Shown here: in pieces, positions 9,284 to 59,664 of the stretch
How positions within the stretch are numbered: position 1 is the stretch's first letter
How the letters are laid out: every line of letters starts with the position of its first letter
From: Umbelopsis ramanniana AG
Lineage: Eukaryota > Mucoromycota > Umbelopsidomycetes > Umbelopsidales > Umbelopsidaceae
Assembly (NCBI RefSeq): GCF_025399195.1
Contig: NW_026252094.1
Coordinates: 62,001-126,000 of the forward strand
Length of the DNA: 64,000 bases
Direction: 5' to 3'
The notes under the pieces: model-generated
Told to the model about the DNA's origin: nothing
Databases searched by the model: none
Seen by the model: only the letters and a program-made list of their open reading frames with translations
Program-made: the position numbers and the translations under genes

Positions 9284-11334
<2,051 letters not shown>

Positions 11335-13297: not shown

Positions 13298-13605
13298 TAC
13301 CTATCTAATAAAAAAAAAATTAAGAAGGCATATTCTCTTCGTGATTTTGTTATCCCTGGATTGTTTTATCAAACGTTTTAGTTTAATCTGCGGCTCGCAC
13401 GCATCTTACCACATTCGACCATTTCTTGATATAGGTTACCAGATTTCAGCAGAGTTTGCGAAACACGATGATGCAACTAGCAGAAATAAGACGTTAGCCG
13501 CAAGTAAACCCTTTTGATTTTTTAACTTTTGTGAGAAATTATAAATACTCGGTACATGCGAAATAACCAGTATCTCCATTACTCCACTTGCGGCTCCAAA
13601 ACATT
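13298..13605. other. Intergenic, upstream of M20 peptidase
   Basis: About 300 bases between tandem genes, beginning with an A-run just after the upstream stop. No gene is supported. Confidence 0.5.
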
Positions 13606-14995
13606 ATGTGGGTAGAAATATGCAAGGCTCTCGTTATTACGTGGTTGTTACCTGTGCACTGCCTCCCTATCGAACAACGAGCCACGAATGTGTCACTGCA
13701 AAACCCTGACCTATTCGCTTTTCATCGAGCCATGCTGGCCATCGATTCAACTTCAGGCCGCGAAACAAACATGACTGACTTTGTGGCTAATCATTTACGC
13801 AGTCTGAACTGGACGGTTGAGCTTCAGGCAGTCCATAACCCTACGCTAGATCCTAATATTCGCCGTGAGAATATTTATGCCTACTTGGGCTCAAATCGCA
13901 CCACAAGGCTCTTGATCAACTCTCATACAGACACCGTGCCTCCATATTACCCTCCCTCTGACGACGACGAGAACGTGTACGGTCGCGGTGCTAACGACGC
14001 AAAGGGTCAAATTGCAGTACAACTGTTTGCGTTAGAAAGGCTGCGAAAAGAAAACAAGATTAAAGAAGGAGACGTCGGTATCTTGTGGGATGTAGGCGAG
14101 GAAGAGTACGCTGATGGCATCAGAGCAGCAAATTCCCTCAACATCACGCCTATCTGGTCTATTACAGGCGAACCTACAGAATCTTTCCAAGCAACTGGAC
14201 ACAAAGGAGGTAAGTCGTACCATGCAGCATGTACATTGGACGGTTTAATAATCCCTAACACATAATTTCTGCCTGTCTATCCCAGGCTTCACGGTGTATT
14301 TAAACTCAACTGGTAAATCTGCCCATTCGTCTGTGCCGCAACTTGGCCGCAACGCAATTGTACAGCTTGTTGCAGCTTATAACGAGGTGGTGCAGAAGAA
14401 GTTCTCAGCAAATAGCTTTTGGGTCAATACCACCATTTCTTTAGACAAGGTATGTAACTTATGCGGACTTGCGCTATACCGTGATGAGGAAACCCCATAT
14501 ATCTGACGTTCTACCAGATTCAAGGTGGCCTAGTGCCAAATCAAGTTCCTGACAATGCCATCGGCACTATCAATGTGAGAAACGCTGCCAATGCCAGCTT
14601 GGTGTTAGAGGAGCTAACTGCGGCTTTTGACAAGATACCTCACATGTCTATCATCCGAAATGCTTCTATGAGCAATCCTATCAAGTTTGACGTGATCAAA
14701 AACTGGATGCCAGAGAAGGTTATGCCCTATGGTAAATTCATCTTATTTTCTATGTGGATTTTTGAGTTTTCTCCCTAATTTGATTCTAGGCACTGACCTG
14801 GCAAGCTGGACCGGCAAAAACTACCGGTTTCTCATCGGAGTTGGATCAATCACAACGGCTCATACCGATCACGAAGTGGTATCCAAGGCAGAGATGCTTC
14901 AAGGCGTTAATTACTACGCAGATTTTATAACGGGACTTTTGAATGGCACTTTTCAAGTTGACCATGCTGGTACATTTCCCAACATCACTCCATAA
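13606..14995 (+). CDS. Secreted/vacuolar M20 family metallopeptidase
   Basis: Zinc-dependent exopeptidase or deacylase of the ArgE/DapE/carboxypeptidase group. Exons 13606-14209, 14286-14449, 14518-14731 and 14790-14995 give 395 residues. The start is the first ATG (13606); it is followed by a hydrophobic signal peptide (residues 1-19) and many N-x-S/T sites, so the protein probably enters the secretory pathway. Expected metal-ligand blocks are visible: SHTDTVPP (His), GRGANDAKG (Asp), the catalytic GEEE, ITGEP (Glu) and a C-terminal TAHTDHE (His). A dimerisation domain with a GKSAHSS block lies between. The exact substrate cannot be read from sequence. Confidence 0.9.
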
Positions 14996-15232: not shown

Positions 15233-16106
15233 ATGGCCACCGTCGCAGCTCGCTCTCTCAAGTTTTCATACAAACAACTACGTTCCTTTGCTACTGAAGC
15301 TGTTATATCAGGCAGATCTTCCAATGCAACACATTCCTTTCCCTATTCACCGGCCATGACTCGTACGGCTTTGCCACCTCCCATCATCCCATTTGCCTGT
15401 ACACAAGGAAAGGAGTACTTTAGAGAAGCCATGGACCACGGTACGGCGGAAGGCTTTTTCGGATTGATGGGAAACTTTTCATCTAACGTATTACCACAGC
15501 ATGGGGGACAAGCATCACGTAAGTTTGATTGTGCAAGTGTCGAACTAAAAATAAAATTGATACTGACCCATTTTATCTGCAGTGTCAATGGTCCTTAATT
15601 CATTGGAAATTGACCCAAAGCGAACATGGAAAGGTGCTTGGAGATGGTACTCTACGGATTTACTGCAGGCATGCTCATCTCCCAACCAAATTCAAACTCG
15701 TGGAATCACATTCACTGAATTTGCGTGCCTGGCAAGGAACCACTGTCAAGTTACAGAGCATAAACCTTCATCCACCGCATATTCCACTTTCTTGTCTCAT
15801 TTGACCGAAACCACTTCTAGTGCTGAGTCTCACATGGTTGTCTCCTTCTCAAGAAAAGCCCTTGGTCAAACTAGCCTCAAAGCGAAAACAGGCTTTGCTC
15901 CTATTGGTGGCTACAACCCGCTGCAGAATAAGGTGTTGCTGATGGATAGCTCCCGATCGGAGTATCCCTGCGTCTGGGTCGACGCTGCTCTGTTATATCG
16001 CGCAATGGCGGAAGTAGATCCTCTGCTTCAGTCGGAGCGAGGCTACTTTTTGCTTGCTCAGGGCCAGCAACTGGAAACACGCTGCACCTGCCCTAAGAAG
16101 TTCTAA
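15233..16106 (+). CDS. Phytochelatin synthase-like protein lacking catalytic Cys and His
   Basis: Family PF05023 (papain-like fold), whose active members make phytochelatins from glutathione for metal detoxification. Two exons (15233-15518, 15583-16106) give 269 residues covering the catalytic domain only, without the Cys-rich C-terminal domain of plant enzymes. Family blocks are clear: EGFF, ASLSMVLNSL, WKGAWRW, GITF and PIGGYN. The nucleophile position, reached by aligning to the plant PAYCGLAS block, is Gly91 (GGG at 15503-15505). The catalytic His position just before FxPIGGY is Gly199 (GGC at 15891-15893). The catalytic Asp is kept (Asp217, 18 residues on, as in plant enzymes). The oxyanion Gln position is Asn. 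The first about 23 residues are basic, with Ser and aromatic residues and no acids, like a mitochondrial leader. The reading frame is intact, so this is a probable pseudoenzyme rather than a dead gene. Confidence 0.9.
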
Positions 16107-29670: not shown

Positions 29671-29744
29671 TGATTTCTGCCGGATTCGAACCGGCGACCG
29701 TCTGTGTGTTAGACAGACGTGATAACCGACTACACCAAGAAATC
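29671..29744 (-). tRNA. tRNA-Val (anticodon AAC)
   Basis: Read on the minus strand, the sequence folds as a full cloverleaf. The 7-bp acceptor stem is GATTTCT with AGAAATC. The D arm contains GTAGTCGGTTATCAC. The anticodon stem TCTGT/ACAGA encloses loop CTAACAC with anticodon AAC. The T arm is GCCGG-TTCGAAT-CCGGC, followed by discriminator A. No intron is present. It closely resembles yeast tRNA-Val(AAC). Both internal promoter boxes are intact, so it should be functional. Confidence 0.95.
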
Positions 29745-54782: not shown

Positions 54783-55878
54783 ACAATAATAAGGAATGAG
54801 AAGGAGGTTATTGACTGGCAAGTCGCATGCAATGAGTGAAGATGGGGGTTTCAGAGAAAAAAGGATAGTCTCAGCAATCCGGTTTTATAACGTCCCAGTA
54901 TTTTTCTCACAGACCTTTTTTTGAAAAGCACACAGAGAAACGATCTAACAGATTGGAAACTACACAATCTCAGTTACTGTACGAAATTCATCCTCTCATT
55001 CGTAATTTCTCATCACCATTATTCTCAACCATCCCCGCGTTCGCCTTTTCCTTCCATGCTATGTCTTGAACTGCCGCACATGCTACCAGCTAACCATGAG
55101 ACTGCGTTTTTTCGCTAACGGGTGATTTCGACAACCCAGCCATCATCAATATTCCATCTTGTGGAAAGAAAACGTCATATCCATTGGGATCAGAAACTGC
55201 TAAGATGATATCATGATTTATTTTTTCATTGCTACGGCATCTATCTATGACTTGGAAGAAGCCAGTTCGGTATATCAGGGACGTAAAACAGACCAATGCA
55301 CAACAAAGTTTGTCTTATGTCGTAGACACGCACGCAACTCACTTAACAGACAAGGACATTCAAACACGCACAAACACCAATTACACACTCGTACCTACCA
55401 CGGTTTTCGTTCTCTACTTCTACTACCAGCCCACTATCTTTCTTTCCCTATCTTTTTTCCAGTGCAGCCGCACCAATCCATTGCCTCCCCTAAGTGAATG
55501 GTGCGGCTGATAGAGAACCGCCATTTTGTTGGGTCTCGCTCGCCCGACGGTAGTCTCGCTGGTAGGTGATGATGAAGGATAGGCGAAGTAGTAGGAAAAG
55601 GAAAAAGAAAGAGTTCTCAAAAAGAGAAACGAAATAAACCGTAGGCACTTCCCCGCGCAAAAATTACTTTGATCTGGTTGTTAGGGTATGATCTCAGCCG
55701 CAAGACAACGTAAAACGTCGAATTGAAGCACCCCTAGTGCCTGGTTTATAGAAGTTCGGTGAAAGAAAAATTGGCTGTACCTGGATGTGCTTGGAGACAT
55801 CGAGCCATGACGAAGAATAATAATAATAGAGTAGAAAGAAGATGGAATGGGATAAGGGTAGGGTAGGGTAGGTGATAC
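54783..55878. other. 1.1 kb intergenic, no gene supported
   Basis: Contains the R3HCC1-like promoter and the 3' region of the sugar transporter. Short frames on both strands are CT- or CA-rich low complexity (55210-55510). A G-rich microrepeat lies at 55856-55872. Confidence 0.5.
55856..55872 (+). repeat. G-rich microrepeat GGGTA x3 + GG
   Basis: Three GGGTA units and a final GG, immediately 3' of the sugar transporter stop (C-rich in its mRNA). It has a telomere-like look but the unit is not TTAGGG. It could form a weak G-quadruplex on the plus strand. Confidence 0.6.
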
Positions 55879-58423: not shown

Positions 58424-59664
58424 TTACTCTACTTTCTCGGCAACAATGTTCATACCAATGGGGGTGATTTCACCGGAACGGACAGCATGTTCTTCGTCAA
58501 CGATCATCTTCGTCAGAGCTGCTCTTCCTTCTTCAGTATCCTTCAAGCTATTGAGAGACATTGTGTGAGCGACTATTGGGTAACTCATAATAAAGAAAAA
58601 ATTTAAAAAACTTACCCGCAGAAGACATAATGATGATAGATGAAAGGCAAGGTATCAGTCACACGAGTATTGGCATTACCAAAGACATTGACGATGCTTT
58701 CAATAAGCTCTTTCTTCTCTGGTAGGCCATGAGTAGCGTTATAGAAGATATTCCATCTCTCAGTTGCAGGCTTTTTGGGATCACAGAACTCTTTCAATCG
58801 CTGCAATTGTGCTTCAGGGCCGCCATGGCTGTGTCCATGGTCGTGTCCGTGTCCATGATCGTGTGCGTGTCCATGGTTGTGTGCGTGTCCATGGTCGTGT
58901 CCGTGACCATGATGTCCGTGTGCGTGTTCGTGGCCATGGTGTTCGTGACTGTGATGTCCTTGATGTTGTTGCTCTCGCGGATCAGGACCAAAATGACCAG
59001 AAGAGAGGGTCTCGACCGGGTCAATCACGTTGGCAGCCACCAAGGGATCAAAGTGATCAAAGTACCACTGTATAGTGTGTGTAGGTGGGTAGTCACGGAT
59101 GAGTTCCTCAGCAACGATCAGGCCATTGTTCTTGAGTAACTTCCATGCATTTTTGGCAGCCTGTAGAAACAAAATCACGTATTTTCATTAGCAGAATGGA
59201 ATACAACGCATTTTTCCAAGTCATCTACATACCTCATTGATTGGTAGACAGTGGTGGAAAGACTTGGTGAACACAATGACATCGTACGGCGCACTATCCG
59301 AATACTTGTTGAAGTCCGCTTGCTTGAACGTGACGGAGCCTTCAACGAGACCTTCAGACAACTCATTTGCTTTCTTGATAACATTCTCATTGGCGTCAAT
59401 AGCAGTGATCTTGATCTTGGATCCATAATGTGCGCTTAGGATTCTTGAAAAGTGACCAGCGCTGTCATAAGATAAAAGTGTTTAGTAAATATGTGCGAGC
59501 GGGTACCTCCGCGGTTATGAAGAGTGACTACGCTCAACTTACCCGCAGCCAACCTCCAAGGCTCTCAATGGCTCTGAATGACCCTTTGCAAAAAAGTGAG
59601 CGTCCAAAATCCCGGACAGGTAGGTAAGAAAGGCTTGGTTTTCCAAAACGTGAACAGAAGACAT
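58424..59664 (-). CDS. Class I SAM methyltransferase with histidine-rich insert
   Basis: Exons 59664-59543, 59461-59233, 59160-58616 and 58547-58424 give 339 residues. The SAM-binding motif I is EVGCGAGHFS, split by intron 1, followed by an acidic end of strand 2 (ITAIDAN) and a strand-4 region YDVIVFTKSFHHC. The domain continues with AWKLLKNNGLIVAEE. A low-complexity stretch (residues about 183-230) is then inserted, in which about half of the residues are His in an H-x-H pattern with Gly, Asp and Ala. After it the protein resumes with a soluble C-terminal helical part. The SAM-binding motifs look intact. The substrate is unknown; the insert suggests Zn, Ni or Cu binding but that is inference. 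Confidence 0.85.
58822..58968 (-). repeat. Histidine-codon low-complexity repeat
   Basis: In-frame CAT/CAC codons alternate with GGA, GAC, GCA and AAC, giving short imperfect tandem units (catggacacg-like on the coding strand). Near-perfect repetition at DNA level suggests expansion by slippage. It sits inside the methyltransferase coding sequence. Confidence 0.85.

Follow-up and report, generated by a model that had tools for sequence, protein, structure and literature searches.

A gene at positions 15233-16106 of a 64,000-nucleotide stretch of the Umbelopsis ramanniana AG genome (the window; C8:62001-126000 of a 22.8-Mb genome in 123 contigs) encodes a phytochelatin synthase (PCS)-like protein in which Gly stands at the positions of both the catalytic Cys and the catalytic His. 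PCS activity appears to have been lost from this protein, and the reading that we consider probable is that the gene product is a selected, non-catalytic protein of the PCS fold that acts by binding, possibly as a sensor. The same replacements are found in a clade of relatives, and the genome of this soil fungus, which belongs to the Umbelopsidales (Mucoromycota), also carries a longer, catalytic paralogue.

The gene model was spliced by hand from sequence only. Joining 15233-15518 to 15583-16106 gave a protein of 269 amino acids in which the sole stop is terminal; the intron of 64 bp (GTAAGT...CAG) is in phase 1. The intact frame and clean intron described in the initial annotation were thus reproduced. 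PF05023 is the only Pfam domain in the protein (194.2 bits against a Pfam cut-off of 24.9; E 2.1e-57), and its predicted fold is that of PCS. Nine long open frames of the window served to train a codon-use index, which was 0.783 for this gene and 0.794 for the catalytic paralogue; 1000 random synonymous versions of the gene had a mean of 0.725 and a maximum of 0.770. In a sequencing or gene-model artefact, either the Gly codons or the intron would be erroneous, and the hand splicing leaves some room for it; however, the same residues occur in other assemblies and in metagenome proteins, relative P0001 is the same spliced product and the intron position matches that of the paralogue, so that we give an artefact practically no credence. 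The features of the gene, with the evidence in brackets, are listed below.

15233-15518, + strand: exon 1, residues 1-95 and the first base of Leu96 (splice check; exon-1 relatives P0009 and P0010).
15233-15289, + strand: putative mitochondrial presequence, residues 1-19, ending in R-x-F|A, R17-S-F-A20 (motif in relatives).
15485-15487, + strand: Asn85 (AAC) at the oxyanion Gln position, AtPCS1 Gln50 and Nostoc Gln64 (alignments).
15500-15505, + strand: His90 (CAT, 15500) and Gly91 (GGG, 15503) replacing AtPCS1 Tyr55-Cys56, the Cys being the nucleophile (alignments, codons).
15519-15582, + strand: intron, 64 bp, phase 1 within a Leu codon (position and phase match intron 1 of the catalytic paralogue).
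15583-16106, + strand: exon 2, remainder of Leu96 to the stop (exon-2 relatives P0002-P0006).
15852-15854, + strand: Arg186, the retained AtPCS1 Arg152 equivalent (alignments).
15873-15890, + strand: residues 193-198, with a 3-residue insertion directly before the lost His (alignments).
15891-15893, + strand: Gly199 (GGC) at the catalytic His position (alignments, codon).
15945-15947, + strand: Asp217 (GAT), the retained catalytic Asp (alignments, codon).
15957-15962, + strand: Ser221-Glu222 (GAG, 15960) replacing AtPCS1 Phe184-Lys185 of the second-substrate cavity (alignments, codon).
16083-16091, + strand: CxC in the C-terminal tail, QLETxCTCP in the clade (7 of 8 clade rows).

The phmmer alignment to Nostoc PCS paired Asn85 with Gln64, Gly91 with Cys70, Gly199 with His183, Asp217 with Asp201 and Glu222 with Lys206. 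Nostoc Gln64, Arg173, Lys206 and Tyr207 are numbered after PMC3855540 and the remaining Nostoc numbers were counted from these; AtPCS1 equivalences come from the same paper and from counting. Expressed in AtPCS1 numbers, the Nostoc and fungal alignments gave the changes Gln50 to Asn85, Glu52 to Leu87, Tyr55 to His90, Cys56 to Gly91, His162 to Gly199, Phe184 to Ser221 and Lys185 to Glu222, while the equivalents of Arg152, Gln157, Asp180 and Tyr186 are retained. Three residues are inserted between a conserved GQT and the His position; the pairing of His with Gly199 rests on the alignment beside this insert, but that no His stands at this place is independent of it. The Lys185 position holds Glu in the clade and Gln in one relative. 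Four of the altered positions (Gln50, Cys56, His162 and Lys185) are invariant in the 114 catalytic rows taken from the best 120 of 1287 profile matches. The others call for more caution: the catalytic Umbelopsis paralogue also deviates at Glu52 (Ser), and the Tyr55 and Phe184 positions vary among catalytic rows, being mostly Tyr or Phe. Judged by the residues that characterize the enzyme (EC 2.3.2.15; MEROPS C83), the window protein lacks the Cys, the His, the oxyanion Gln and Lys185 and has the Asp.

Mutant results on AtPCS1 bear directly on these changes. Activity is abolished by loss of Cys56, His162 or Asp180 (PMC11314372); Q50N is inactive, changes at Lys185 leave <1% of activity and Ala at Glu52, Tyr55 or Phe184 gives very low activity (PMC3855540). 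Because the residues altered here include those whose mutation inactivates AtPCS1, we infer that the window protein has lost PCS activity. The initial annotation had placed Gly91 for Cys, Gly199 for His and Asn85 for Gln with Asp217 kept, and the codons and the Nostoc alignment agree with it on each. It had also put the cost of each loss at two or more base changes, which holds for His to Gly and fails for Cys to Gly, where one change suffices (only the codon now present, GGG, lies two changes away from any codon for Cys). Its description of the domain as otherwise well conserved has to be given up for the active site, since the equivalents of Lys185, Phe184, Glu52 and Tyr55 also differ and the insert precedes the His position; in addition, the protein lacks the C-terminal part that the paralogue has.

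Next, relatives of the window protein were collected. A single-sequence search gave 8 matches among 355 candidates: P0001 (U. ramanniana, 94%), P0002-P0006 (exon-2 frames from environmental sequence) and the canonical proteins P0007 and P0008. An exon-1 search gave two, P0009 and P0010, and the listed profile matches include P0017 from U. vinacea. The joint alignment contains 126 rows, of which 10, the window included, belong to the Gly-Gly clade; the comparison set leaves out these and also P0008 and P0116, both of which are without the N-terminus and retain His and Asp. Gly occupies the Cys position in 5/5 clade rows covering it (about three lineages), Asn the Gln position in the same 5/5, and Gly the His position in 8/8 (about four lineages), the window being counted in both Gly tallies. 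The clade rows are partly non-independent, and the lineage counts allow for this kinship: P0009 equals P0017 over the first 94 residues, P0003 equals P0017 over 158 exon-2 residues, P0004 differs from P0003 at 1 of 160, and the window protein, P0001 and P0002 are closely similar. By comparison, Gln, Cys, His, Asp and Lys185 are all retained in the 114 other rows (113 distinct) from the best 120 of 1287 profile matches. The reading frame is open in every clade relative seen. Because Gly is shared across the clade at both sites, a sequencing fault and a recent pseudogene can both be set aside. Relatives' DNA was absent from the viral contigs, and the genome contigs yielded a single locus, which encodes a bacterial PCS that retains Cys and His.

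The tail CxC is present in 7/8 clade rows. The one exception is the annotated P0017 model, and P0003, its near-identical counterpart in exon 2, does carry the CxC. Residues 255-492 of P0017 form a 238-residue tail with no Pfam match and a best match in the window at a non-significant E of 0.26. Since P0003, identical over 158 exon-2 residues, ends in the normal tail, the tail of P0017 is probably a gene-model fusion.

The catalytic paralogue lies at C5:162241-163851, with three exons encoding 492 residues. It carries SPSYCGPSS and GDGHFSPIGG, its C-terminal extension has a CxC close to the end, and it is identical over 492 residues to P0011 (U. ramanniana AG). Intron 1 of the paralogue coincides in position and phase with the intron of the window gene. 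DNA searches of the genome gave no further copy of the window gene, the protein search matched only the C5 paralogue, and no third PCS gene was detected by family, DNA or protein searches; these counts are lower bounds.

A tree was built from 61 rows chosen out of the 126-row alignment. Support for the Gly-Gly clade is 100/100, and its stem measures 1.72 changes per site, compared with 0.34 for the stem of the Umbelopsis catalytic clade. The best tree joins it with Umbelopsis and Mucorales at support of only 79/89, and forcing it beside the catalytic clade of Umbelopsis worsens the fit by 0.25 log units (approximately unbiased test, p 0.369), so that the tree does not distinguish a duplication within Umbelopsis from an older one. 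The long stem leaves its placement among the fungi unsure. In the same tree set, P0117 (Lobosporangium) and P0118 (Mortierella) represent a second, shorter Mortierellales PCS lineage that retains Cys and His (stem 0.72).

Constraint on the domain was estimated by comparing it with the leader. Window and P0001 differ at 9/45 sites in residues 1-45 and at 6/209 in residues 46-254 (p 1.8e-4); window and P0017 differ at 23/43 in the leader and 32/209 in the domain (p 3.8e-7). The odds of change in the clade domain are thus 6-8 fold below those in the leader. Of the exon-1 relatives P0010 has diverged most; it is identical to the window protein at 39/47 aligned sites in residues 46-94 and at 3/32 in residues 1-45. 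Residues 72-97 around the former nucleophile are almost frozen, with 0/26 and 1/26 changes and 22/26 identities to P0010. Among four exon-2 rows, 21/76 of the sites at least 80% conserved in catalytic PCS are variable, compared with 39/80 of the others (Fisher p 0.008). These results bear on the possibility that the gene is a decaying pseudogene drifting with a frame open by chance. Change faster than in the catalytic protein and the long stem are what such decay would produce, but every relative seen is open and has the same replacements for Cys, His and Gln, the domain changes far less than the leader, codon use is host-like, and the sites conserved in catalytic PCS vary less often in the clade as well. 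We regard decay as very improbable. Protein comparison and codon use together support a pseudoenzyme retained under selection.

The initial annotation had likewise proposed a selected pseudoenzyme, and the shared losses, the domain constraint relative to the leader and the paralogue speak for that proposal. The two tests of relatedness that it suggested turned out in its favour: Gly-Gly members form one clade and the genome does hold a catalytic paralogue. Close orthologues keeping Cys and His, which it named as a reason to abandon the idea, were not seen, all clade rows that cover the sites having Gly.

Could the cleft have been rebuilt for a different reaction, for example with His90, the Cys at residue 56 or the CxC tail? 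His90 and the residue-56 Cys, where the family usually has Ser, are fixed in 5/5 clade rows covering them and differ from the usual family residues; the strong constraint on residues 72-97 and the CxC in most clade tails fit the same idea. On the other hand, no clear replacement triad is apparent, and the oxyanion Gln and the essential Lys have gone along with Cys and His. A new catalyst therefore seems to us rather improbable.

Among the first 30 residues of the leader, five are Lys or Arg and one is acidic. The rest of residues 1-45 has diverged, but R-x-F-A begins at residue 17 or 18 in the window protein, P0001, P0017 and P0010, and this motif may represent a mitochondrial peptidase cleavage site. 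Shuffling gives R-x-F-A by chance in 2-5% of such leaders, a figure that is an index and not a test of localisation. In Schizosaccharomyces pombe, a PCS-GFP fusion was reported to be mitochondrial (PMC4410428). The window protein is probably mitochondrial.

Our preferred reading, a non-catalytic protein of the PCS fold retained for binding, would have arisen as follows. An ancestral fungal PCS gene may have been duplicated prior to the split of the sampled Umbelopsis lineages; the copy on contig C5 would have remained a full enzyme, and in the other neither the nucleophile nor the general base would have survived, nor the oxyanion Gln, one essential cavity Lys and the C-terminal domain. A burst of change in the inactive copy may then have been followed by constraint, leaving the PCS fold, a mitochondrial-looking presequence and a tail whose CxC is fixed in the clade. 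Its role would be that of a regulatory or decoy partner of active PCS, either through a hetero-oligomer or by holding glutathione or metal-glutathione without turnover. Binding is the most likely function because the fold and the Arg, Asp and Tyr residues are kept and the chemistry is not. Pairing with the active paralogue would be the simplest route because PCS can form dimers, as has been described for the Nostoc enzyme (PMC3855540) and for Schistosoma mansoni PCS; holding glutathione or a metal complex comes next. That the protein is a regulatory or decoy partner of active PCS by either route is proposed tentatively. A narrower version, in which the inactive paralogue controls the Umbelopsis mitochondrial phytochelatin/glutathione pool by pairing or competing with the live synthase, with the dismantled cleft at His90-Gly91 and the CxC tail as binding surface, is possible and somewhat doubtful.

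A free-standing metal or glutathione sensor unrelated to active PCS is a sub-reading that overlaps with this explanation. The kept equivalents of Arg152, Gln157, Asp180 and Tyr186 and the CxC tail would suit such a sensor. However, 2/4 of the AtPCS1 residues Cys90, Cys91, Cys109 and Cys113, which are conserved in land plants, are replaced in the window protein (Cys90 and Cys113 are variable in catalytic rows too, being kept in 71/114 and 69/114 of those from the best 120 of 1287 matches); Lys185 has given way to Glu or Gln; and the C-terminal domain found in the paralogue, a domain for which the literature suggests metal regulation, is absent. We think a sensor of this kind unlikely.

Several observations weigh against the preferred binding role. 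Nothing directly connects the inactive protein with the active C5 paralogue. Pairs among the four exon-2 lineages are 73-82% identical, and in the same alignment columns the catalytic proteins of Umbelopsis reach 88-91% (the species pairs are unmatched, and one close catalytic pair is at 99%); the domain thus seems to be under weaker constraint than its catalytic counterpart. Within the clade, the second half of the former site also shows no special conservation (9/15 sites invariant at 192-206 and 6/10 at 217-226), and a faithful two-substrate glutathione site is therefore not favoured.

Other features of the window were recorded as well. An M20 peptidase with a dimerisation domain (13567-14506, + strand) lies upstream of the PCS-like gene on the same strand, with no sign of a glutathione link. 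A SelO protein adenylyltransferase frame (PF02696, 157.5 bits; 9284-10204, - strand) lies 5 kb from it; SelO, an enzyme with an atypical kinase fold, has links to mitochondria and redox. A tRNA gene is located at 29671-29744 (- strand; Rfam 65.4 bits) and a thiamine pyrophosphate riboswitch (RF00059) at 55633-55745 (- strand; 55.2 bits against a gathering score of 54.3). Fungal riboswitches of this class lie in introns of thiamine genes. The open frame at 58612-59184 (- strand) contains a long His-Gly rich stretch, possibly a metal-binding segment, and has no Pfam match. A scan for bacterial promoters and terminators found none, and such models do not apply to a fungus.

The protein is less novel than the initial annotation supposed. 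Shine et al. (2015) reported four PCS-like Mucoromycotina proteins with a substituted Cys, forming one clade with 100% bootstrap, and doubted an enzymatic role (PMC4410428). The window protein resembles these four in being PCS-like, in the substituted catalytic Cys and in belonging to the same subphylum. The words histidine, glutamine, lysine, glycine, Umbelopsis and ramanniana do not occur in the main text of that paper, which thus leaves the replacing residue and the state of the His, Gln and Lys unstated. No Mucorales protein with a lost Cys was present among the best 120 of 1287 profile matches or among the 8 single-sequence matches; the absence of such matches may reflect distance or a separate origin. 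Because of the 2015 report, our finding is a fuller instance, and not the first sign, of an inactive fungal PCS. Among the papers listed by literature searches, judged by title and abstract opening, none dealt with the window protein except that paper on the related four, and none was relevant for Umbelopsis with phytochelatin.

It remains an open question how PCS is controlled and why organisms that seldom meet cadmium retain the enzyme. An inactive and a live copy in one genome form a natural control, and it is improbable that the inactive copy serves to make phytochelatins by the established chemistry. If the inactive copy does regulate the live one, it would be, to our knowledge and without an exhaustive search, the first regulator of PCS derived from the enzyme's own fold. 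The present analysis extends the 2015 hint of inactive Mucoromycotina homologues by delimiting a clade and specifying which residues it has lost. The gene pair is testable, and U. ramanniana is in culture.

Compared with canonical fungal PCS (the Umbelopsis C5 paralogue, Mucorales and Mortierellales), the window protein shares PF05023, and with the C5 paralogue also the position of intron 1 and a basic N-terminal extension; unlike it, the canonical proteins keep Cys, His, Gln and Lys, and a C-terminal domain is present in the C5 paralogue. Nostoc PCS Alr0975 (2BU3, 6TJL) is similar in predicted fold and in single-domain size, but it is an active cysteine enzyme, and the identity in structural alignments is 27-30%. 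In the 12 of 15 relevant places covered in a paper on inactive papain-like proteins (PMC10318531), no inactive C83 member is named. The proteins TINAG, UFSP1, OTULINL and menin described there are like the window protein in having a papain-like fold, lost catalytic residues and other roles, although they belong to other families.
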